Source of the DNA: a virus
Strand: one strand, 5' to 3'
Length of the DNA: 56,328 nucleotides
IMG/VR virus record: IMGVR_UViG_3300008448_000099
Location: 1 to 56,328 of that record
Under the pieces are notes generated by a model. It worked only from the letters and a program-made list of their open reading frames with translations, was not told the DNA's origin and did not search any database. A program made the position numbers and the translations under genes. Shown here piece by piece: positions 25,908-35,024 of the stretch. Numbering within the stretch: the stretch's first letter is position 1; each line of letters opens with the position of its first letter.

Positions 25908-26844
25908 GCCAGACGACATCGACTTTGCCGCCTACTTACAGGCGACAGACAACCATCAAAAGGTCAAGCCGGCATCGGACTACCTTGATGAGCTTGTGGA
26001 AGATGTCGCCCACCCGAAGGAGGAGAACAACCTTCAAATGCCTTGGACGAAGACCCATGGAGAGGTCGCCTTCCGTCCGGGTGAGGTGACCCTGTACGCA
26101 GGATCGAACGGCGGCGGTAAGTCATTGGTCACGGGTCAGATCGCTCTTCACCTGATCAAACAGGGTCAGAAAGTGTGCATTGCATCATTTGAGATGAAGC
26201 CCAAGAGAAGCCTTGAGCGAATGCTTCGTCAGTTTTCAGGGGAGAACATCCATAAGCCGCGGTACATGGATAAGGAAAAGTATGTCCGTGACCTGGCTAA
26301 TCGCCTTGAGAACTTCTCCCGCGGGAAGTTGTGGTTCTACGATCAACAGGGAACTACTTCAGCGCAGCAGGTTGTTGCCGTTGCTCGTTACTCAGCTGTG
26401 AAGTTGGGCGTGACCCACATCTTTATTGACTCCCTAATGAAGTGCGTTCAGGGAGAGGACGATTACAACGGTCAGAAGTGGTTCATCGACGAGCTCTGCT
26501 CTTTAGCGCGAGACCACAATGTCCATGTCCACTTGGTTCACCACATCCGGAAGTTAGCGAATGAAGAGTCAACCCCGAATAAGCACGACATCAAGGGCTC
26601 AGGTGCTATCGCTGACCAAGTCGACAATGTCTTCATGGTGTGGAGAAACAAGAAGAAAGAGCATCAGGCATCGATGGGGGTGGCGACCGATCCGCTTATG
26701 AATGACGCCATGCTGATGTGTGAGAAGCAAAGGAATGGTGAGGTTGAGGATTGGTATTCGCTTTGGTTTCACCGTGAGTCTCAGCAATTCGTTGACCGTC
26801 ATGACGGGTTGCCCATGACATTCGATGAGCATGGAAAGTTTTAA
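25876..26844 (+). CDS. DnaB/Twinkle-type replicative helicase (RecA-like core)
   Basis: 322 aa. RecA-like motor with Walker A GSNGGGKS at residues about 76-83, a GQIALHLIKQGQKVCIASFEMK segment after it, Walker B THIFIDSLMKC near 180-190, and HLVHHIRK as the sensor-like motif. No primase domain is present, so it matches helicase-only phage DnaB/gp4 C-terminal relatives. It should unwind DNA at the fork. The start lies 32 bases inside the previous gene and is preceded by GGTGAG-type purines only. The stop is TAATG-coupled to the next gene. Confidence 0.85.
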   Translation: MTKEKKLEFLEPDDIDFAAYLQATDNHQKVKPASDYLDELVEDVAHPKEENNLQMPWTKTHGEVAFRPGEVTLYAGSNGGGKSLVTGQIALHLIKQGQKVCIASFEMKPKRSLERMLRQFSGENIHKPRYMDKEKYVRDLANRLENFSRGKLWFYDQQGTTSAQQVVAVARYSAVKLGVTHIFIDSLMKCVQGEDDYNGQKWFIDELCSLARDHNVHVHLVHHIRKLANEESTPNKHDIKGSGAIADQVDNVFMVWRNKKKEHQASMGVATDPLMNDAMLMCEKQRNGEVEDWYSLWFHRESQQFVDRHDGLPMTFDEHGKF

Positions 26845-27065
26845 TGAATGTCTACGAAAAGCTCAAAAATTGGAAAGAAGGACAAGGCGATGATCAAGAC
26901 CGGCACCGCGGCCTTGTCAGGTGGGTCATCCGTATGCGGGTTGCAGACAGAGACAAAGCCCATGTCTGGCTTCAAGGTTGGAACCAAAAGCATCCCGGCT
27001 CTATTTTGGAGTCCGATGTCGTCGATCAATGGAAAAAAGGTAACCGCGGGGAAGGATGGAAATGA
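26844..27065 (+). CDS. Small phage protein, unknown
   Basis: 73 aa, TAATG overlap with the helicase. VYEKLKNWKEGQGDDQDRHR and VRWVIRMRVADRDKAHVWLQ look like a structured helical protein. The overlapping +1 frame from 26848 was judged less likely because it lacks this coupling. Lies between helicase and resolvase; probably replication-associated. Confidence 0.65.
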   Translation: MNVYEKLKNWKEGQGDDQDRHRGLVRWVIRMRVADRDKAHVWLQGWNQKHPGSILESDVVDQWKKGNRGEGWK

Positions 27066-27409
27066 TTGAAATAACTTTACCTTGGCCACCATCGGTTAAT
27101 CATTATTGGCGTATGTGGCAAGGACGCATGGTGATTGGGACAAAAGGCCGTGAGTATCGAAAGGCCGTATCCGATCTAGTCATGATCCATAAAGGAACCC
27201 GGTCAATAGAGGGCAAGGTCAAGATGACGATTGAGGCATTCAGGCCGGACAACCGCAGGCGTGACCTTGACAACCTCTTGAAGGCGGTCTTGGATGCTTT
27301 AGGTAGTGCCGGCGTGTATCACGATGACTCATTGGTAGTGGATCTAAGGATTTATTGGGCACCGGAAATCGGTGGGATGTTGAAGGTGAAGATAGAGGAG
27401 AACAAGTGA
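27062..27409 (+). CDS. rusA: Holliday junction resolvase RusA
   Basis: 115 aa from the ATGA-overlapping ATG at 27062 (an ATG at 27056 is also in frame). Motifs match RusA: LPWPPSVNHYWR at the N-terminus, then RRRDLDNLLKAVLDAL with D68, D70 and K74, and HDDSLV with D88/D89, corresponding to the catalytic D70/D72/K76/D91 set of E. coli RusA. It cuts four-way junctions formed during phage recombination or packaging. Confidence 0.92.
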   Translation: MIEITLPWPPSVNHYWRMWQGRMVIGTKGREYRKAVSDLVMIHKGTRSIEGKVKMTIEAFRPDNRRRDLDNLLKAVLDALGSAGVYHDDSLVVDLRIYWAPEIGGMLKVKIEENK

Positions 27410-27609
27410 AGCGAACGCATTGTTGGGCAATCAAGATTAACCGTGGCGGCTTTGTGAATTTTCAGCCGACCCATTATTGGGAAGCCGATCGAACCATGCT
27501 CTTCCGCACTCAGAAGCAGGCAAAGGCGTGGTTGGCAAGCAATCGGTTCTGGGCGTTAAAGGGAACCGTGGTCAAGGTAACCGTTATGGTCAAGGAGTAC
27601 GCCGAATGA
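27406..27609 (+). CDS. Small phage protein, unknown
   Basis: 67 aa from a GTG overlapping the rusA stop (GTGA), with GAGGAG upstream. Aromatic and basic (HCWAIKINRGGFVNF, AWLASNRFWALKG). No family recognised. Coupled to the next gene by ATGA. Confidence 0.65.
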   Translation: MKRTHCWAIKINRGGFVNFQPTHYWEADRTMLFRTQKQAKAWLASNRFWALKGTVVKVTVMVKEYAE

Positions 27610-27944
27610 GCGACAGAAAAGAGCGCGACCCACATAAGGCGGTTGACTACATCATTGCTAACGCTAAGAAGTTTGCTAAGGCTAAAGCTGAGCGTGTTTA
27701 CCTTGAGGAGTTTCGTAAGTCATTAAAGGCGATTCTGATGAAGCGAAGCCTTGAGGAGACGATCGGGGCTCAGGAGCGTGAAGCATATGCGAACGAGGAA
27801 TACAAAAGCCTGCTAGAGGGTCTAAGAGATGCAATTGAGATAGAAGAAAGTTTGCGGTGGGATCTGATTGCAGCTCAGGCTCGAGTGGAGATCTGGCGTA
27901 GCGAACAGGCAAACCTGAGGGTGGAGGGCAAAGTCACGCTATGA
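27606..27944 (+). CDS. Helical phage protein, unknown
   Basis: 112 aa. Mostly charged helix (KKFAKAKAERVYLEEFRKSL, LLEGLRDAIEIEESLRWDL). Likely coiled coil. ATGA overlaps on both sides. This layout is common in phage ninX-region or recombination accessory genes; function unknown. Confidence 0.65.
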   Translation: MSDRKERDPHKAVDYIIANAKKFAKAKAERVYLEEFRKSLKAILMKRSLEETIGAQEREAYANEEYKSLLEGLRDAIEIEESLRWDLIAAQARVEIWRSEQANLRVEGKVTL

Positions 27945-28165
27945 CGCAGCCGGTCATCAAGGAGGGGGATTGGGTCTTGGTATGCGAGACCGGAGAGAAG
28001 GGGCAAGTCATCGAAGTATTTGATGAAGGAGAACGCTTCCTCTTAAACATCCCCCAGACCAAAGGATGGCCGTACCCCAAAAGGGTTCATGTGATGATTG
28101 AAAAGCTCAGAAAAATAAAAGCACCAAAGTTAGAGCCGTTATGGAAACAGGAAAGTTTATTTTGA
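27941..28165 (+). CDS. Small beta-rich protein, KOW/SH3-like
   Basis: 74 aa. KEGDWVLVCETGEKGQVIEV resembles a KOW/SH3-like barrel strand-turn. The C-terminus is basic. Function unknown; nucleic-acid or ribosome contact is possible but unproved. Confidence 0.6.
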   Translation: MTQPVIKEGDWVLVCETGEKGQVIEVFDEGERFLLNIPQTKGWPYPKRVHVMIEKLRKIKAPKLEPLWKQESLF

Positions 28166-28175
28166 GGAGGCCAAT

Positions 28176-28379
28176 ATGAAAGACTTAATTGATTTCAAGA
28201 AGATTTGGGAGCGGATAGTAAACCAATGGAAGGAATCGTTTGGATGGTTTTTGGTAGTGGGGCTTGCGTTTGTTTTTGGGATGGCATGGCAGACAAAACA
28301 GATCACGGATGATTGCAAGATTATTGGATCGTTTAGGGATGCAACGCAGGCGTATTCATGTCAAGTACGAGTTCGATAG
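28176..28379 (+). CDS. Small single-pass membrane protein
   Basis: 67 aa with GAGGAGG upstream. A hydrophobic helix at about residues 23-39 (FGWFLVVGLAFVFGMAW) follows a basic N-terminal half. Not recognised; could alter the host envelope in early infection. Confidence 0.6.
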   Translation: MKDLIDFKKIWERIVNQWKESFGWFLVVGLAFVFGMAWQTKQITDDCKIIGSFRDATQAYSCQVRVR

Positions 28380-28387
28380 GAGAAGCC

Positions 28388-28579
28388 ATGAGCTCAATTG
28401 TTCAAGATGTGCCTGATTTAAGCAGTCATGTTGTGTCGCTAAACAGACTAATTATGGAGTTAAACAGGGAAACCCGGCAGACCTATATGCCGAACTACGC
28501 CCGAATCATCGATATAGCCTCGCAGATGAAGATGCACGCATCGCTTGTTGAAAACATGATGAAGAGGGAACAGAAATGA
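28388..28579 (+). CDS. Small phage protein, unknown
   Basis: 63 aa; ATG at 28388 chosen because TAGGAGAAG lies directly upstream. Helical, with hydroxyl-rich start and basic end (MHASLVENMMKREQK). ATGA overlap with the Rap1a/Tai-like gene. Confidence 0.6.
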   Translation: MSSIVQDVPDLSSHVVSLNRLIMELNRETRQTYMPNYARIIDIASQMKMHASLVENMMKREQK

Positions 28580-28905
28580 AAAAGATTCTAGTTGCGTTAC
28601 TGATGGTTCCCGCTATGGCTCATGCGGAGTTCGTAAGCGGAAACGACCTTCTCTCACGGCTAAAGAGCAATGAGTACATGGACAAGATGTACGGGCTTGG
28701 CTATGTCTTGGGCGTATTCGATGCCGGTCAGCACATTAGACATTGCGCTCCAAATGGCAGCGGTATCAATGCCGGTCAAATTCAAGACATGGTTCAACAG
28801 TACCTTGAGCAAAACCCATCGCTACGGAACATGGCCGCCGATCTTTTGGTGACTGACGCAATCCGTCGAGTGTGGCCATGTAAGAGCAAAGGCAAGGGAG
28901 CGTAA
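28576..28905 (+). CDS. Secreted Rap1a/Tai-family-like protein
   Basis: 109 aa. A signal peptide is clear: MKKILVALLMVPAMAHA with a cut after AHA (residue 17). The mature part (FVSGNDLLSRLKS, GLGYVLGVFDAGQHIRHCAPNG, GQIQDMVQQYLEQNP, DAIRRVWPCK) has the order of motifs of the Rap1a/Tai immunity family (PF18602), including two cysteines (C57, C102) likely to form a disulfide. Known bacterial members neutralise periplasmic T6SS amidases. In a phage it may protect infected cells or block another phage. The assignment rests on motif memory, not a search. Confidence 0.7.
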   Translation: MKKILVALLMVPAMAHAEFVSGNDLLSRLKSNEYMDKMYGLGYVLGVFDAGQHIRHCAPNGSGINAGQIQDMVQQYLEQNPSLRNMAADLLVTDAIRRVWPCKSKGKGA

Positions 28906-29117
28906 TGGCAAGAGGTAAGAGTCAAGTCTATGACATGGTTAAAGAAGCAGGGCTCAAGGTTCTTGGCACCAAGTTCTGCTTTAGTTGTCAGCGCCATCGA
29001 CCTGTGGAGACCGGCAAGCAGATGCAACGCAAGGGCAGTAGTGTATGGAGATGCGGTGAGTGTGCGAAGCGGATGAATGCTATGGGGTTCAAAAAGAATA
29101 AGGAGATCGCAGAATGA
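28905..29117 (+). CDS. Small zinc-ribbon protein
   Basis: 70 aa, TAATG overlap. Two CxxC pairs, FCFSCQRHRP and WRCGECAKRM, predict a zinc ribbon. Basic overall. Possibly a transcription or recombination factor in the early operon. Confidence 0.7.
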   Translation: MARGKSQVYDMVKEAGLKVLGTKFCFSCQRHRPVETGKQMQRKGSSVWRCGECAKRMNAMGFKKNKEIAE

Positions 29118-29326
29118 AATATGTATTAGCGTTTTGCACGATCGCAACAATTATTTTGCTAGTTATGCACCGCATGGATCAGCGGTATGCGGAGGGGTTT
29201 GCTGCCGGTCAGAAAGTGGTTCTGAGCACTCAGCCGCCATCAGAAGCTCTTGAGGTTGCCTGCGTGTCATTGTGGGCAGGCAGTCAGAATAAGAAGTATG
29301 TGGACAAGGAATTCAACGCTAAATGA
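29114..29326 (+). CDS. Small N-terminally anchored protein
   Basis: 70 aa. Hydrophobic residues 4-19 (VLAFCTIATIILLVMH) suggest a signal anchor. The remainder is soluble and polar. ATGA overlaps at both ends. No family recognised. Confidence 0.6.
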   Translation: MKYVLAFCTIATIILLVMHRMDQRYAEGFAAGQKVVLSTQPPSEALEVACVSLWAGSQNKKYVDKEFNAK

Positions 29327-30606
29327 AATATCTCTCTGTCTGCAGCGGGATTGAGGCGGCCACATCTGCTTGGCACCACATGGGTTGGGAGCCTGTGGCC
29401 TTCTCAGAGATTGAGCCCTTCCCATCCGCGGTGCTGAAGCACCACTACCCCAATGTCCCGAATGTCGGGGATATGACCAAATTTAAGGAGTGGAATCTTG
29501 GAACAATTGACCTTCTTGTCGGAGGAACCCCCTGTCAATCCTTCTCTGTCGCCGGACTCAGAAAAGGATTGGACGACCCGCGTGGTAACCTCATGCTTAC
29601 CTTTGGTGCCATTGCTCGCCACTTCTCTCCCCGTTGGTTGGTTTGGGAAAATGTCCCTGGGGTCTTGTCGTCTAACGGAGGACGGGACTTTGGTACCTTC
29701 CTCGGAATGTTGGGAGAACTCGGGTATGGGTTCGCCTACAGAGTTCTTGACGCTCAGTACTTCGGAGTGGCACAAAGACGCCGCCGTGTGTTCGTTGTCG
29801 GATGTCTTGGAAACTGGCGAGATGCCGCAGCGGTTCTTTTTGAGCTCGCAAGCCTGTCAGGGAATCCTCCGCCGAGCCGAGAAGCGCGGAAAGTCACTCC
29901 CACCCTCTCTGCATCAGGCACTGGCGTCAGTCGTGTCGGGTTCAACTGCGAAGACGAATGGTTCATCCCCCAACGACCCCAATGGTGGGACGGAGGAGAT
30001 AGCGCAGCAAGCCTGACCACTCGATGCCACGATCAGTCCATGCCGGATAAGGGCAACTTTGCGGCGGTAGTTCAGCCGATCCCGTTCAGGAAGTCCAAGC
30101 GGGCTCAGAGCGTGGATGACGACGAGTCTTGGGTAGATGGGGAGGTGGCCAACACCATCAACCTATTCGACCAGGGAGATACCCGCACGACCCATGCCGT
30201 GGTCCAGCCGGTAGCCTTCTCATCAAACATGAGCGTACCGGACTGCTCTGAAGACCTATCCCCGACCCTGAAGCTAGGCGGCCATGGCGGGGCAAACCCG
30301 CCGGCAATCGCCGCTCCAACATTGACTGCAAGTAATGATCCAAGCCGGAGCCCACAATCATCTGAAGTAACTCAACAAGTTGGCGCGGTTTACCAAGCAT
30401 CAATGGCCGTCCGAAGACTTACCCCCGTGGAGTGCGAGCGTCTACAGGGCTTTCCTGACAACCATACCTTGATCCCCTGGCGGGGCAAGGACGCCTCCGA
30501 ATGCCCGGATGGGCCACGGTACAAGGCTTTAGGTAACTCAATGGCTGTCCCGGTCATGCGTTGGATCGGGGAGCGGATAAGGATGATTGATGAACTACCG
30601 AAATAA
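29323..30606 (+). CDS. dcm: DNA (cytosine-5-)-methyltransferase
   Basis: 427 aa. All main motifs are visible: SAM-binding LSVCSGIEAATSAW, catalytic GGTPCQSFSVAG with C71, WENVPGVLSSNGGRDF, QRRRRVFVVGCLG, a target-recognition region of about 200 residues, then RRLTPVECERLQGFPD and ALGNSMAVPVM. It should methylate C5 of cytosine in a short site, probably shielding the phage from host restriction. A second long ORF is embedded in another frame (29498-30016). The gene ends 17 bases inside the next one. Confidence 0.92.
   Translation: MKYLSVCSGIEAATSAWHHMGWEPVAFSEIEPFPSAVLKHHYPNVPNVGDMTKFKEWNLGTIDLLVGGTPCQSFSVAGLRKGLDDPRGNLMLTFGAIARHFSPRWLVWENVPGVLSSNGGRDFGTFLGMLGELGYGFAYRVLDAQYFGVAQRRRRVFVVGCLGNWRDAAAVLFELASLSGNPPPSREARKVTPTLSASGTGVSRVGFNCEDEWFIPQRPQWWDGGDSAASLTTRCHDQSMPDKGNFAAVVQPIPFRKSKRAQSVDDDESWVDGEVANTINLFDQGDTRTTHAVVQPVAFSSNMSVPDCSEDLSPTLKLGGHGGANPPAIAAPTLTASNDPSRSPQSSEVTQQVGAVYQASMAVRRLTPVECERLQGFPDNHTLIPWRGKDASECPDGPRYKALGNSMAVPVMRWIGERIRMIDELPK
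29498..30016 (+). CDS. Possible overlapping gene in alternate frame of the methyltransferase
   Basis: 172-aa open frame starting with ATG at 29498, fully inside the methyltransferase gene. The encoded product has distinctive phrases (MEQLTFLSEEPPVNPSLSPDS, SGMGSPTEFLTLSTSEW, CSLSDVLETGEMPQRFFLS, GILRRAEKRGKSLPP). I recall proteins with these phrases annotated in other phages beside or within such methyltransferases. AAGGAG lies about 12 bases upstream. Whether it is translated or only mirrors conserved DNA of the host gene cannot be settled here. Confidence 0.4.
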   Translation: MEQLTFLSEEPPVNPSLSPDSEKDWTTRVVTSCLPLVPLLATSLPVGWFGKMSLGSCRLTEDGTLVPSSECWENSGMGSPTEFLTLSTSEWHKDAAVCSLSDVLETGEMPQRFFLSSQACQGILRRAEKRGKSLPPSLHQALASVVSGSTAKTNGSSPNDPNGGTEEIAQQA

Positions 30607-30886
30607 AGCCCTCCTTGAGGTTGTCCGGGAGGCTCCCTGTCAGCTATGCGGGGCTGAGGATGGGACGGTTGTGGCCGCCCATAGCAACCAGCAGAGGGAC
30701 GGGAAGGGCACGGGGATCAAGGCGCACGACTACCGGATAGCCGCCCTCTGTTATTCCTGCCATATGCAGTTGGATCAGGGGTCGAAGATGTCCAAGGAGG
30801 ATCGGGTCGACATATGGGAGATAGCGCACCGCAAGACGGTGGGGTGGCTCTTTGAGACGGGACGGCTAAAAGTAATACCTGAGTAA
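30590..30886 (+). CDS. HNH-like treble-clef protein (phage recombination nuclease-like)
   Basis: 98 aa from ATG 30590 (a TTG at 30587 is one codon earlier). CQLCG, VVAAHSNQ, GKGTGIKAHDYRIAALCYSCHMQLDQG gives the Cys/His layout of treble-clef nucleases similar to DUF1364/Ref-like phage proteins. It likely binds zinc and DNA. It sits directly after the methyltransferase. Confidence 0.65.
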   Translation: MNYRNKALLEVVREAPCQLCGAEDGTVVAAHSNQQRDGKGTGIKAHDYRIAALCYSCHMQLDQGSKMSKEDRVDIWEIAHRKTVGWLFETGRLKVIPE

Positions 30887-30923
30887 AACTTAGGGGGTAT
30901 TGTGAAAAAGATGAAAAAACCCC

Positions 30924-30952
30924 TTGCGAGAGATTTAAGTAGGACTTACATT
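30924..30952 (+). promoter_or_regulatory. Candidate sigma70 promoter
   Basis: TTGCGA (30924-30929), 17-base spacer, TACATT (30947-30952). It lies in the only gap in this early region, 45 bases upstream of the next start codon. Confidence 0.5.
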
Positions 30953-30959
30953 ATCACTA

Positions 30960-30974
30960 CGGTCAGCGTGACCG
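30960..30974. promoter_or_regulatory. Operator-like inverted repeat
   Basis: CGGTCA-gcg-TGACCG is a perfect six-base inverted repeat with a 3-base centre. It sits about where transcription from the promoter at 30924 would begin, so it could be a repressor operator or a leader hairpin. Confidence 0.45.
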
Positions 30975-30997
30975 GTTAGGAAAGAAAAGGAAAGCAA

Positions 30998-31291
30998 ATG
31001 AAAAACGACATCATCACTACCGACATCGATCGCTTAGGCATTCTGCTTGCTGAGATCGATCGCCTGACCAAAGAGGCAGACACCATCAAGGATGCTCTCA
31101 AGGATTCCGCAACCCTTCCCAACGCATCCAAAGAGTTTGTTGGCAATCTGTTCAAAGCCACGGTCATCGAAACAAATCGCAAGACTACCGACTACAAGGC
31201 ATTGATTGACGATCTCAAGATCGCATCTGATGTGGTTGCCAAGTACACCAAAACAAGTGCCGTGTTTTCTGTTAAGACTACTTCACGCTAA
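30998..31291 (+). CDS. Phage protein, unknown
   Basis: 97 aa with AAAGGAAAG upstream. DRLGILLAEIDRLTKEADTIKDAL then FVGNLFKATVIETNRKTTDYKAL is a pattern of small helical phage proteins encoded in middle operons. Function not established. First gene after the promoter at 30924. Confidence 0.65.
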   Translation: MKNDIITTDIDRLGILLAEIDRLTKEADTIKDALKDSATLPNASKEFVGNLFKATVIETNRKTTDYKALIDDLKIASDVVAKYTKTSAVFSVKTTSR

Positions 31292-31301
31292 GGAGATGAT
31301 G

Positions 31302-31715
31302 ATGAACCTCACGATTAAATCACTCAAGACTTGGTACACCCCCGATGGCGGCGGTTATCACTTCAACCTTTACAAGGACGGCAAGAAGATTGCCTTTGTC
31401 TTCAATGAGGGCAACGGCGGTATGGTGAGCATCACTTGGGACTCATGCAAGGAAGAGGTTATGGAGTATGTGAAGAGTCTTCCTGAGATTACCTTGGGTG
31501 AGTACAAGATTGGTATGACGGTAGATATTCTGATGGATGAACTTGTGTCTAATTATGAGTTGGAAAAGAAGATGGCAAGGTATCGCAAGAAAGGGATTCT
31601 CTTCCGTTTGTTGTCAGATCCGGAGAATTCTTTCCGTACCATCAAGACATTGGATCTGAATGTAGCAAAGGATTTCTTGGATAAGAAGCACCCCAACTCT
31701 TACATTTTAATTTGA
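31302..31715 (+). CDS. Phage protein, unknown
   Basis: 137 aa. Three ATGs in a row (31296, 31299, 31302); the last has the best spacing to AAGGAG. Beta-rich start (SLKTWYTPDGGGYHFNLYKDGKKIAFV) then helices. No family recognised. More Lys/Asn and fewer Arg codons than its neighbours. Confidence 0.6.
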   Translation: MNLTIKSLKTWYTPDGGGYHFNLYKDGKKIAFVFNEGNGGMVSITWDSCKEEVMEYVKSLPEITLGEYKIGMTVDILMDELVSNYELEKKMARYRKKGILFRLLSDPENSFRTIKTLDLNVAKDFLDKKHPNSYILI

Positions 31716-31722
31716 GGTCAAT

Positions 31723-31878
31723 ATGAGCAAAGGATGGATTGTTGTGAAGTTCGATGGGTCAACTAAGGCAACGGTTGTGGAAACCTTTGAGGAGAAGTGT
31801 GAGGCGCAGGACAAGGCGGTAGAACTGAACCTGACCGCTCCTGAGGGAGTTACCTACGGATGGGAGATGAACAAATGA
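31723..31878 (+). CDS. Small phage protein, unknown
   Basis: 51 aa, with GAGGTCA upstream. WIVVKFDGSTKATVVETF then EKCEAQDKAVELN and TYGWEMN look like a small alpha/beta fold. It overlaps the next gene by ATGA, which supports that it is real. Confidence 0.6.
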   Translation: MSKGWIVVKFDGSTKATVVETFEEKCEAQDKAVELNLTAPEGVTYGWEMNK

Positions 31879-32090
31879 GCAATATCATCAAGATGCGTAC
31901 ATCGATGCGCCGCCCCGCTGACTTCCATCAGGCGGCAAATGTCATGGCTAACGGTCACCTTGGCGGGTTTGCGGAGTCCTTGGCATTGACTTGGTTTCGG
32001 GCAGACTCAGAGAATAAGGACAAGATCCAAGCCAATTGGCCTGACCTCTTCATTCGGGCTTTTGAGATATTTGAAGGACAAAAGAAATGA
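31875..32090 (+). CDS. Small phage protein, unknown
   Basis: 71 aa, ATGA overlap at both ends. MRRPADFHQAANVMANGHLGG and LTWFRADSENKDKIQANWPD. No family recognised. Confidence 0.6.
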   Translation: MSNIIKMRTSMRRPADFHQAANVMANGHLGGFAESLALTWFRADSENKDKIQANWPDLFIRAFEIFEGQKK

Positions 32091-32305
32091 TCCTTGCGTA
32101 CTGTGATTACATCGCCCACATCATCCAAAAGAACCTCAAGCGTAACGATCTTGAGGGGATGATCGATAGCGTGGGAAAGGTTAACTTCGACTTAAACGAT
32201 GACGGCTCATACCGTTCGACCAAAAAGGTTATTAGCGTGGTTGATAAGCACGGTACGGGGTACACAATTACAATTGAGGAGAACAGAAATGAGCATCCAA
32301 TTTAG
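32087..32305 (+). CDS. Small phage protein, unknown
   Basis: 72 aa, ATGA overlap. Helical N-terminus (DYIAHIIQKNLKRNDLEGMID) and beta-rich C-terminus. Overlaps the next gene by 17 bases. Confidence 0.6.
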   Translation: MILAYCDYIAHIIQKNLKRNDLEGMIDSVGKVNFDLNDDGSYRSTKKVISVVDKHGTGYTITIEENRNEHPI

Positions 32306-32510
32306 TCCGGGCAAGCCTTCGGAGCAGGAGCTTTTAGATCAGGCGGCGGGCGTAGGCTTAGACTTTGAGAAGGACTCAATGGAGGCGTTTTGGTTCGTTA
32401 CCTTCTGCAATCAGTTGTGGGTTCACGGGTATGTGGATGGCATGGACGGAATGCGTAAGGCAACCGCAGAGACATTAGAAAGATACAGAACCGAATCATT
32501 ACCGAACTGA
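32289..32510 (+). CDS. Small phage protein, unknown
   Basis: 73 aa from ATG 32289 with GAGGAG upstream. Acidic N-terminal half, then MEAFWFVTFCNQLWVHGYVD. The C-terminal TES codons carry a degenerate copy of the dispersed palindrome, and its TGA overlaps a perfect copy. The frame after the stop stays open for 56 codons. Confidence 0.6.
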   Translation: MSIQFSPGKPSEQELLDQAAGVGLDFEKDSMEAFWFVTFCNQLWVHGYVDGMDGMRKATAETLERYRTESLPN

Positions 32511-32524
32511 AACCGATTCGGTTT
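32510..32524. repeat. Dispersed palindrome AAACCGATTCGGTTT (noncoding copy)
   Basis: Identical to 25046-25060, here starting in the last base of a stop codon. It stands directly before the structured noncoding region. Confidence 0.75.
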
Positions 32525-32762
32525 TAAGGGTGAACCGGAGCACCCCAAGACTCCGGTACCAATACGCATAGGGGCAAGGTCTCTAACCGTATGGGGCGGT
32601 AACAGGATGAAGCACGGCAACGTGGGGTTCGCTTGTTGTACACACCCGCCCCACCAAGTCACCCTAATTCACCAAAATTAGGGAGAAAGTTAAGGGAGGC
32701 GTTAAGCAGGCAGCAGAGGATACGGGACGCCGGGGTTTTTCCTGCTTTCCACCCGGCCACGC
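32525..32762 (+). ncRNA. Candidate structured noncoding RNA or packaging-region element
   Basis: No convincing gene lies between 32511 and 32801. Complementary segments seen by eye: GGGTG 32528-32532 with CACCC 32541-32545, interleaved with ACCGGAG 32534-32540 and CTCCGGT 32551-32557 (H-type pseudoknot geometry); ATACG 32562-32566 with CGTAT 32588-32592; GGGGCGG 32593-32599 with CCGCCCC 32646-32652, directly abutting the previous helix; CACG-GCAA-CGTG 32613-32624 (GNRA loop); CCCTAATT 32662-32669 with AATTAGGG 32676-32683; AAGCAGG 32704-32710 with CCTGCTT 32741-32747. Position upstream of the terminase genes also fits a pac or regulatory site. No known RNA family recognised. Confidence 0.5.
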
Positions 32763-32801
32763 TGAACCGTCAAATCTGGTCTCCCGCCTGAGAGAGGATG
32801 A

Positions 32802-33002
32802 ATGCAATACTTGCTAAACCCAAGAAAGAGGATCTCAGCCGCCCACCTATGGTTAGGGGAAGACACCGCCTGTAGGATGTACTCGACGGGAGGGCTCAGA
32901 CCTGAAAGGCAGAAGATCTTCGATAGTCCGATGGGAAAGAAGATATGCCTGATGTGCTCTAACAGTATTGGGAGAGTGGCACAAAAGCCTGATAGCGATT
33001 AG
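32802..33002 (+). CDS. Small CxxC zinc-binding-like protein upstream of terminase
   Basis: 66 aa. HLWLGEDTACRMYSTGGL and GKKICLMCSNS give spaced cysteines as in small treble-clef proteins found next to terminase genes in many phages. AGAGGA upstream. It may be an HNH-like packaging partner; no HNH triad is complete. Confidence 0.65.
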   Translation: MQYLLNPRKRISAAHLWLGEDTACRMYSTGGLRPERQKIFDSPMGKKICLMCSNSIGRVAQKPDSD

Positions 33003-33038
33003 ACTTGACCTATCATCCATTCGACTGGACTAAGGGTC

Positions 33039-33602
33039 ATGCCTGAAACTCGAACCAAACGAAAGCCAACCGAAACCGAATCGGTTCTTCCCCAAGAAGA
33101 GCAAGCCGCCCAAAAGCCAAAACACCCCGGCGGCCGCCCATCAGACTTCACAGAAGACCTAGCCGCAGAGATATGTGCAAGGATCTCCACAGGAGAGCCA
33201 TTAGTACGGATATGCCGTGACGACCATATGCCTCATGTAGTGACAGTCTATCGTTGGCTGTCCCGAATTACAGAGTTTCGCAATATGTACACACAAGCCA
33301 AGGAAGAGCAGGCAGATACCTTGGCGGAAGAGATACAGGACATTGCTGATCAGATGCCCATGGAGGTGACTGATAAGGATGGGAATACCAAGTTCGATCC
33401 CGCCTACATCAATTGGATGCGCTTGAGGGTGGATGCCCGGAAGTGGACGGCGTCGAAGTTAAAGCCGCGCAAGTACGGCGATCGAGTTGAGTTGGCCGGA
33501 GACAAGGACAACCCCCTGAAGATTGAGGCGGCCATTGAAGCGAAGGGGCTCTTTGACTCCCTCTTGCAGAACATGGAACTGAAGAAGCAGGTAGCCAAGT
33601 AA
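33039..33602 (+). CDS. terS: Terminase small subunit
   Basis: 187 aa. GGRPSDFTEDLAAEICARIS, CRDDHMPHVVTVYRWLS (helix-turn-helix) and RVDARKWTASKLKPRKYGD follow the Sf6-type TerS pattern. It recognises packaging sites and recruits TerL. The disordered N-terminal tail (residues 10-20) encodes TETES and carries a copy of the dispersed palindrome (33074-33086). The large subunit begins right after its stop. Confidence 0.88.
   Translation: MPETRTKRKPTETESVLPQEEQAAQKPKHPGGRPSDFTEDLAAEICARISTGEPLVRICRDDHMPHVVTVYRWLSRITEFRNMYTQAKEEQADTLAEEIQDIADQMPMEVTDKDGNTKFDPAYINWMRLRVDARKWTASKLKPRKYGDRVELAGDKDNPLKIEAAIEAKGLFDSLLQNMELKKQVAK
33074..33086. repeat. Dispersed palindrome AACCGAATCGGTT
   Basis: Six-base arms around a central A, within the terS N-terminal tail. 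ACC GAA TCG are whole codons, as in the other coding copies. Confidence 0.7.
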
Positions 33603-35024
33603 TTGGATGACCTAGTTGAGATCCTTAAAGATCCGGAAACTCAGGCCAAGTTTGCAACCCTCAAGCCTGAGGATCAGGTCGCCTGGGCTTGGAGGGCTAA
33701 CTGGATCACTAAGGCGCATCGCCACCAGGTTGTCCCGGCTGGGGATTGGTGGACGATATGGCTCATGCTCGCCGGTCGCGGTGCCGGCAAAACCCGGACT
33801 GCTGCGGAGCAGGTGGGGTGGTGGGCGTGGCAGGAACCGGGCACTCGCTGGCTGGTGGGAGCACCAACAAGCTCAGATGTCCGTGCCACTTGTTTTGAGG
33901 GAGACTCAGGGCTCCTATCAGTTATACCCGGTTCACTTGTGGCAGATTACAACCGAGCCTTCCACGAGCTTAAATTGACCAACGGCTCCCTGATCAAGGG
34001 CATCCCAGCCTCAGAACCGGAGCGCTTCCGGGGGCCACAGTTCCACGGGGCATGGCTTGATGAGTTGGCGGCATGGGACTACCTCGACGAGGCGTGGGAT
34101 CAGATCATGTTCGGTGTCCGTCTTGGCCAGAAGACCCGGATCATCTGCACGACTACGCCTAAGCCGCGAGACCTAATCATCGACTTGGTTGGCCGGGAGG
34201 GTGACGATGTCGTCCTGACCACGGCCTCAACCTATGACAACCTCGCCAACCTAGCGCCGTCCTTTCAGAAGCAGATCTTGCAGTATGAGGGCACCAAGCT
34301 TGGCCGGCAGGAGATCTACGCTGAGATCATCGACCCTGAGGAGTCAGGGATCGTCAAGCGGGATATGTTCAGGCTTTGGCCGCACGACAAGGCTTTCCCG
34401 AAGTTTGAGTACATCATTCAGTCCTATGACTGCGCCTACACAGAGAAGACCATCAACGACCCCACGGCCTGTATCACCTGGGGCGTCTTTAAGCCGGTAG
34501 ACGGTCCAATGTCGGTCATGGTCATCGACTGCTGGCAAGACCGCCTTCAGTACCCTGACCTGCGGCCTAAGGTCATTGAGGAGTACGACACCGTCTTCGG
34601 TGAGGGCAAGGAAAGAAAGCGCGTTGACCTGATCCTCGTTGAAGATAAGTCAGCCGGCATCAGCCTGATCCAAGACCTACAGAGGGCGCACCTGCCTGTC
34701 CGGGCTTACAACCCCGGCAATGCCGATAAGGTCCAGCGCCTGAACATCGTCTCTAACATCATCGCCCGTGGCCGGGTGTGGATTCCTGAGAGCTCAGTTC
34801 GGAAGGGTTATGTCCGGGATTGGGCTGAACCCTTTGTCTCGCAGATCTGCTCCTTCCCTGAGTCGACCCATGACGACTTCGTCGATGCTTGTACCCAAGC
34901 GCTGCGGTTCCTGAGAGACGCCGGATGGTTAGAGATCGATCCCCCACCGCGGGATGATTACGACGAGGAAGATGTGATTGATTCAGGGCTTCGGTCTCGC
35001 CGGGAGAATCCTTATGCGGTCTGA
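33603..35024 (+). CDS. terL: Terminase large subunit
   Basis: 473 aa from a TTG start immediately after the terS stop. Walker A LAGRGAGKT (about 56-64), Walker B HGAWLDELAAW (about 147-157), TTTPKPRDL coupling motif, and the RNase H-like nuclease with YDCAYTEK (D near 275), VEDKSAG (second acid) and HDDFVDAC (third). It powers DNA packaging and cuts at headful. The TTG start and weak ribosome site suggest coupling to terS translation. Confidence 0.95.
   Translation: MDDLVEILKDPETQAKFATLKPEDQVAWAWRANWITKAHRHQVVPAGDWWTIWLMLAGRGAGKTRTAAEQVGWWAWQEPGTRWLVGAPTSSDVRATCFEGDSGLLSVIPGSLVADYNRAFHELKLTNGSLIKGIPASEPERFRGPQFHGAWLDELAAWDYLDEAWDQIMFGVRLGQKTRIICTTTPKPRDLIIDLVGREGDDVVLTTASTYDNLANLAPSFQKQILQYEGTKLGRQEIYAEIIDPEESGIVKRDMFRLWPHDKAFPKFEYIIQSYDCAYTEKTINDPTACITWGVFKPVDGPMSVMVIDCWQDRLQYPDLRPKVIEEYDTVFGEGKERKRVDLILVEDKSAGISLIQDLQRAHLPVRAYNPGNADKVQRLNIVSNIIARGRVWIPESSVRKGYVRDWAEPFVSQICSFPESTHDDFVDACTQALRFLRDAGWLEIDPPPRDDYDEEDVIDSGLRSRRENPYAV

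Follow-up and report, generated by a model that had tools for sequence, protein, structure and literature searches.

A conserved structured RNA upstream of the terminase small subunit gene of an uncultured phage, with a core hairpin that recurs before unrelated genes in other phages

The stretch of DNA analyzed here (the window) is a virus record of 56,328 bases. Judged by TerL and portal, its closest named relatives are an unclassified Caudoviricetes genome and phages of Caulobacter, Roseobacter and Pelagibacter. Between the end of a small ORF at position 32510 and the start of terS at position 33039 lies a spacer that encodes a conserved plus-strand RNA with two structured modules, A (32528-32656) and B (32694-32785). 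All of the helices that a preliminary description had named by eye were present where it had placed them. These include an H-type pseudoknot with loops of 1, 0 and 5 nt and a 5-bp stem that abuts a 7-bp GC helix at the 32592/32593 junction, where the 5′ domain of module A ends and its core begins. The features of the locus are as follows.

32528-32557, plus strand: module A 5′ domain, H-type pseudoknot, paired in 10/10 sequences
32528-32532 with 32541-32545, plus strand: pseudoknot helix S1, GGGTG/CACCC
32534-32540 with 32551-32557, plus strand: pseudoknot helix S2, ACCGGAG/CTCCGGT
32562-32592, plus strand: module A 5′ stem ATACG/CGTAT (ATACG 32562-32566, CGTAT 32588-32592) with a variable inner stem-loop, abutting the start of the core
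32593-32652, plus strand: module A core hairpin, 60 nt, covered by model R1, which was built without the window
32593-32599 with 32646-32652, plus strand: core helix P1, GGGGCGG/CCGCCCC
32601-32606 with 32632-32637, plus strand: core helix P2
32613-32624, plus strand: CACG-GCAA-CGTG, contained in core helix P3
32638-32645, plus strand: 3′ bulge of the core, GUACACAC
32653-32656, plus strand: RCCA tail (here ACCA) right after P1; RCCA in 12 of 15 long forms
32664-32686, plus strand: hairpin CCCTAATT/AATTAGGG between A and B; the A-B spacing is 33 nt longer in the window
32694-32785, plus strand: module B, an Atu_At1-like pseudoknotted RNA, 98.1% paired in eight sequences
32694-32700 with 32779-32785, plus strand: closing helix of module B
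32704-32710 with 32741-32747, plus strand: pseudoknot of module B, AAGCAGG/CCTGCTT
32989-33016, plus strand: promoter-like site just 5′ of terS and apart from A and B, 9/12 consensus matches (a consensus match only)
33039-33602, plus strand: terS, terminase small subunit (PHROG 1482, E = 1.9e-42)

The pairing had also been described as more ordered than chance would give. This was true of positions 32525-32700, whose fold was better than that of 200 out of 200 dinucleotide shuffles (z = −2.99), but over the wider 296 nt the fold energy alone was unremarkable (z = −1.46). Because the energy over 296 nt is unexceptional, the case for an RNA rests on comparison. We took 80 TerL relatives of the window from IMG/VR, and further phages were reached by pattern scans of viral contigs. 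Among the closest TerL relatives, the DNA that still aligned comprised the structured region and the start of terS; positions 32792-33012 were mostly unaligned, and the upstream small ORF hardly aligned. A 66-aa ORF with a CxxC motif at 32802-33002, which close relatives seem to lack, had no Pfam or PHROG match. The palindrome ACCGAWTCGGT, whose center is a GANTC site, occurs in three copies in the window (25048, 32512 and 33075), two of which flank the spacer.

For the core hairpin we built a covariance model (R1) from nine core sequences, with the window excluded. R1 recovered the core of the window (32593-32652) with a score of 55.4 bits (E = 7e-14) and likewise picked up copies elsewhere that had been held out. 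Among 31 distinct sequences, P1 was 99.5% paired and 7/7 of its pairs were changed on both sides; P2 contained several further pairs with changes on both sides. The controls, shuffles and slid partners, fell far below the real alignment. Since kinship among sequences can mimic covariation, columns were also re-simulated on a tree relating these sequences. In this home-made approximation of R-scape (it is not R-scape), applied to an alignment fitted to the structure of the model, three structure pairs reached E ≤ 0.05 and six reached E ≤ 1, and no off-structure pair passed. P2 and P3 were too conserved to yield significant covariation in the tree-based test. In P2 of the window, a C-G pair is replaced by G-C. 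These compensatory changes bear out the suggestion of a new structured RNA, for which the preliminary description had named covariation among homologues as a check. A protein-coding frame, which had been considered as another source of the conservation, was rejected because homologues differ in length by single bases and carry compensatory changes.

Many of the conserved P3 pairs are G-U, which fits an RNA read from the plus strand. The GNRA hairpin noted earlier in P3 is present in the window, but its GCAA tetraloop is not strictly kept, and other and longer loops occur in relatives. Unpaired sequence is conserved within this otherwise variable hairpin. Some scan patterns fixed the conserved 3′ strand, and conservation there is therefore partly selected; in a scan that left GUACACA free, it was still mostly kept, with GACACA and GAACACA as variants. 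Each record contained one strong copy of the core, and a few records had a weak second match. One such match (L120:1080-1138; G005 contig 2579-2637) scored 20.6 bits with R1 in a phage that has its strong copy elsewhere, and is perhaps a degenerate copy.

The pseudoknot and the stem 5′ of the core belong to the lineage of the window, and we refer to cores preceded by them as long forms. In an alignment of ten sequences, made by hand, S1 was paired in 40/40 cells and S2 in 70/70. Five of the seven S2 pairs were changed on both sides, as in ACCGGAG/CTCCGGT, CCCCGGA/TCTGGGG and GCCGCGG/CCGCGGC, and no shuffle equaled the pairing of S1 and S2. The ATACG/CGTAT stem was paired in 56 of 60 cells (12 sequences), with two pairs changed on both sides. 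For this stem and for S1, the count of double changes alone was not clearly greater than in shuffles. RCCA was absent after P1 in three of the 15 long forms and present in one of the short forms read, a contrast between long and short forms that is not independent, the long forms being close kin. The tail suggests that RNA processing may take place in the long forms.

At the gathering score, Rfam gave no match to module A in the window or in 15 related loci, and a permissive scan (E ≤ 10) returned only chance-level matches. ARAGORN found no tRNA or tmRNA in the window. A pattern scan of a bacterial genome collection gave three matches, none of them supported by R1, and the search of 349 genomes from the phylum of a Vibrio with R1 gave one partial match at chance level. 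Reading parts of Caulobacter phage RW, Roseobacter phage CRP-901, Pelagibacter phage HTVC023P and MW202545 revealed no copy of module A, and a literature search yielded no description of it. We regard it as virtually certain that the conserved structured RNA at the spacer, which we found neither in Rfam nor in the papers searched, is real. It represents a structured RNA family without an Rfam match, all copies of which came, in this analysis, from contigs of uncultured phages.

Two more hairpins had been described 3′ of the core. Both are present in the window, but we did not see the first (32664-32686) at the corresponding place in any relative read, and it is probably a lineage-specific insert; the last is part of module B, which runs to 32785 and so extends beyond the end first given for the region (32762). 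In eight sequences, module B had ten pairs changed on both sides. The Rfam search that had been proposed earlier left module A without a match and showed module B to be Atu_At1-like. RF02496 (Atu_At1, a small RNA of the Rhizobiales) aligned with module B of the window over the whole model (positions 1-108) at 25.4 bits and with module B of four other phages at 26.7-28.1 bits, in all five cases below the curated cut-off of 60 bits. The likeness extends to the order of the helices over the full model and to the loop-loop pairing, which is missing from the Rfam model but occurs in most rhizobial Atu_At1 copies as well (read from the sequences there, counted in the eight-sequence alignment for the phages). 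Hosts and context differ. Our own model of module B, R2, gave weak reciprocal matches at the right places in three rhizobial Atu_At1 copies; with stricter filters it gave none in the 349 genomes. Module B is likely a relative of Atu_At1 and not a member of the family, and it suggests a connection of phages with a small RNA family of rhizobia.

The rhizobial Atu_At1 copies (L193-L202) contain a pseudoknot that the Rfam model omits (AACCGG/CCGGTT or AAGCGG/CCGCTT) and are preceded by a promoter-like pattern, GGAAC...CGTT, which we take to resemble EcfG stress promoters. The pattern suggests that these copies may be under general-stress (EcfG) control; small RNAs driven by EcfG have been described in Alphaproteobacteria (PMC5869019). 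Two phage loci on reverse strands, L213 and L113, have a −10-like box 5′ of module B (TATAAT at a distance of 8 nt and TATTAT at 6 nt, respectively), and the box in L213 overwrites the end of A. L125 retains only the 3′ end of module B. The two modules may stand in for each other where transcripts start.

Short forms of module A consist of the core without the 5′ domain. In 13 of 14 independent cases, a −10-like box (TANNNT) was found 6-9 nt before P1; shuffles gave a mean of 1.05 and a maximum of 5, and other offsets gave 0-1. A box at this fixed distance implies that the predicted transcript of a short form begins with the hairpin. The −35 boxes of these promoters, which are predicted from sequence only, are weak or variable. 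The TANNNT box preceded the core in 0 of 11 long forms, and the window has no −10-like box just upstream. Since terS of the window has its own promoter-like site and module A has no box there, support for a leader, as the preliminary description had suggested, is confined to the short forms.

Behind the core lie diverse genes, among them one for an SNF2 helicase, an HTH gene followed by one that is primase-like, a gene for a Mom-like protein, and terS; in several loci start codons lie tens of bases 3′ of the hairpin. Because the same core precedes unrelated genes away from terS, a role confined to the terminase or to pac is disfavored; neither the terminase-operon leader nor the pac-associated element that had been envisaged generalizes, and a pac or cos site was rejected on these grounds. 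A riboswitch was rejected as well, the downstream genes being unrelated and no terminator-like site being predicted between the element and terS in the window. Antitermination is not an obvious need, as some of the downstream operons are short, with about three genes in the L084 and L085 types. In the genome of L125, the gene after A (L175:11427-11888) is Mom-like (Pfam PF25680), and in L011 and L014 it is Mom-like by eye. The mom gene of phage Mu is a DNA-modification gene that is controlled through its mRNA.

We tentatively favor, with slightly less than even confidence, a reading of module A as a cis-acting leader that works through host factors. Such an RNA probably tunes the reading or preservation of phage genes by the machinery of the host. 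In the short forms, transcription would begin with the first base of the core, which would place the hairpin at the 5′ end of the message. Conserved positions inside the hairpin (the GCAACGU loop region, UUCG and the GUACACA bulge) would form a surface that host machinery recognizes, most likely elongating RNA polymerase or the apparatus of mRNA turnover. The hairpin would then raise the expression of whichever gene follows, as put of HK022 does with no help from a phage protein. In the lineage of the window, the promoter would have been replaced by the pseudoknot and the stem abutting the core, and the core may function within a longer transcript or be released from it by processing. No protein family was present in all of the compared genomes that carry A yet missing from the one that lacks it, which favors host factors, although a core protein common to all would fit too.

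The put RNAs of HK022 are about 70 nt long, with putL just 3′ of its promoter and putR further on, and act on host RNA polymerase without a dedicated protein (PMC9378689). They are the nearest working analogue of module A, being phage RNAs of similar size that, in the case of putL, lie close behind a promoter, whereas A consists of a single hairpin with the GUACACA bulge, to which a pseudoknot and a stem are added on the 5′ side in some phages. R1 had no match in positions 26000-34000 of HK022; with no match in this early region, we conclude that A is not a put RNA. Like 5′ stabilizing hairpins of the ompA type, A is expected at the extreme 5′ end in short forms, but its internal sequence is conserved too, which simple end protection would not need. 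With A placed where phage messages are predicted to begin, antitermination of the put kind, 5′ protection and operator models can each be tested directly using an insert of 60 nt. A further reading seems unlikely when taken as a whole: A would form a second class of phage RNA, unrelated to put, that opens the transcript and reprograms host RNA polymerase in cis with no phage protein involved, the lineage of the window having a processed version, and B would be carried by the phage as a copy or mimic of a small RNA from the host stress response.

Alternatively, A together with B could be a noncoding RNA that acts in trans, read-through being incidental and the neighbors arbitrary. The wide differences among downstream genes and the single strong copy per record would suit such an RNA, as would the fact that A and B together make up about 260 nt of almost uninterrupted structure in the window, and the resemblance of B to a rhizobial small RNA family. 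However, we noticed no terminator immediately behind either module in the loci read, and the next start codon lies within tens of bases in several short forms; we consider action in trans doubtful.

We find it quite unlikely that the core is an mRNA operator, to which a common phage protein would bind to control the translation or stability of the next gene. The conserved unpaired sequence in a variable hairpin, the nearby start codons in some phages and the Mom-like gene behind A in L125, given the mRNA control of Mu mom, are what an operator would lead one to expect. The unrelated downstream genes are not, and no protein family tracks A in the genomes compared, core proteins common to all of them excepted.

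In the lineage of the window, the core might instead be a processing substrate, for instance one cut by RNase P at the 5′ base of P1, giving the same 5′ end as the short-form promoter would give. The RCCA of most long forms, seen in one short form read, and a 5′ domain that ends exactly at P1 are consistent with this reading. Yet three long forms have lost RCCA while their close relatives keep it, the contrast with the short forms comes from close kin, and the hairpin is not tRNA-shaped, in line with the ARAGORN result. We judge processing of this kind improbable.

Finally, it is highly improbable that the element works as DNA (pac or cos, a replication origin, or a recombination site with a cruciform): it is usually present in one strong copy per record and adjoins terS in the window and its relatives, but its conserved G-U pairs make sense only in an RNA of one strand, it lies beside replication or other genes in other phages, and a −10-like box stands at a fixed distance from it. 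The window's A adjoins packaging genes, as do phi29 pRNA and pac or cos sites, but in other phages it lies away from the terminase genes; the comparison with pRNA was made via the Rfam search only.

Small-RNA-like units were also seen near these loci. Directly before the promoter of A, such units with CTCC-type motifs and a strong T-run terminator occur in L086, L109, L125, L130 and L203. In L012 and L029-L037, the same region 5′ of terS contains other small-RNA-like units with promoter-like boxes (e.g. TTGACA..TATTAAT) and terminators.
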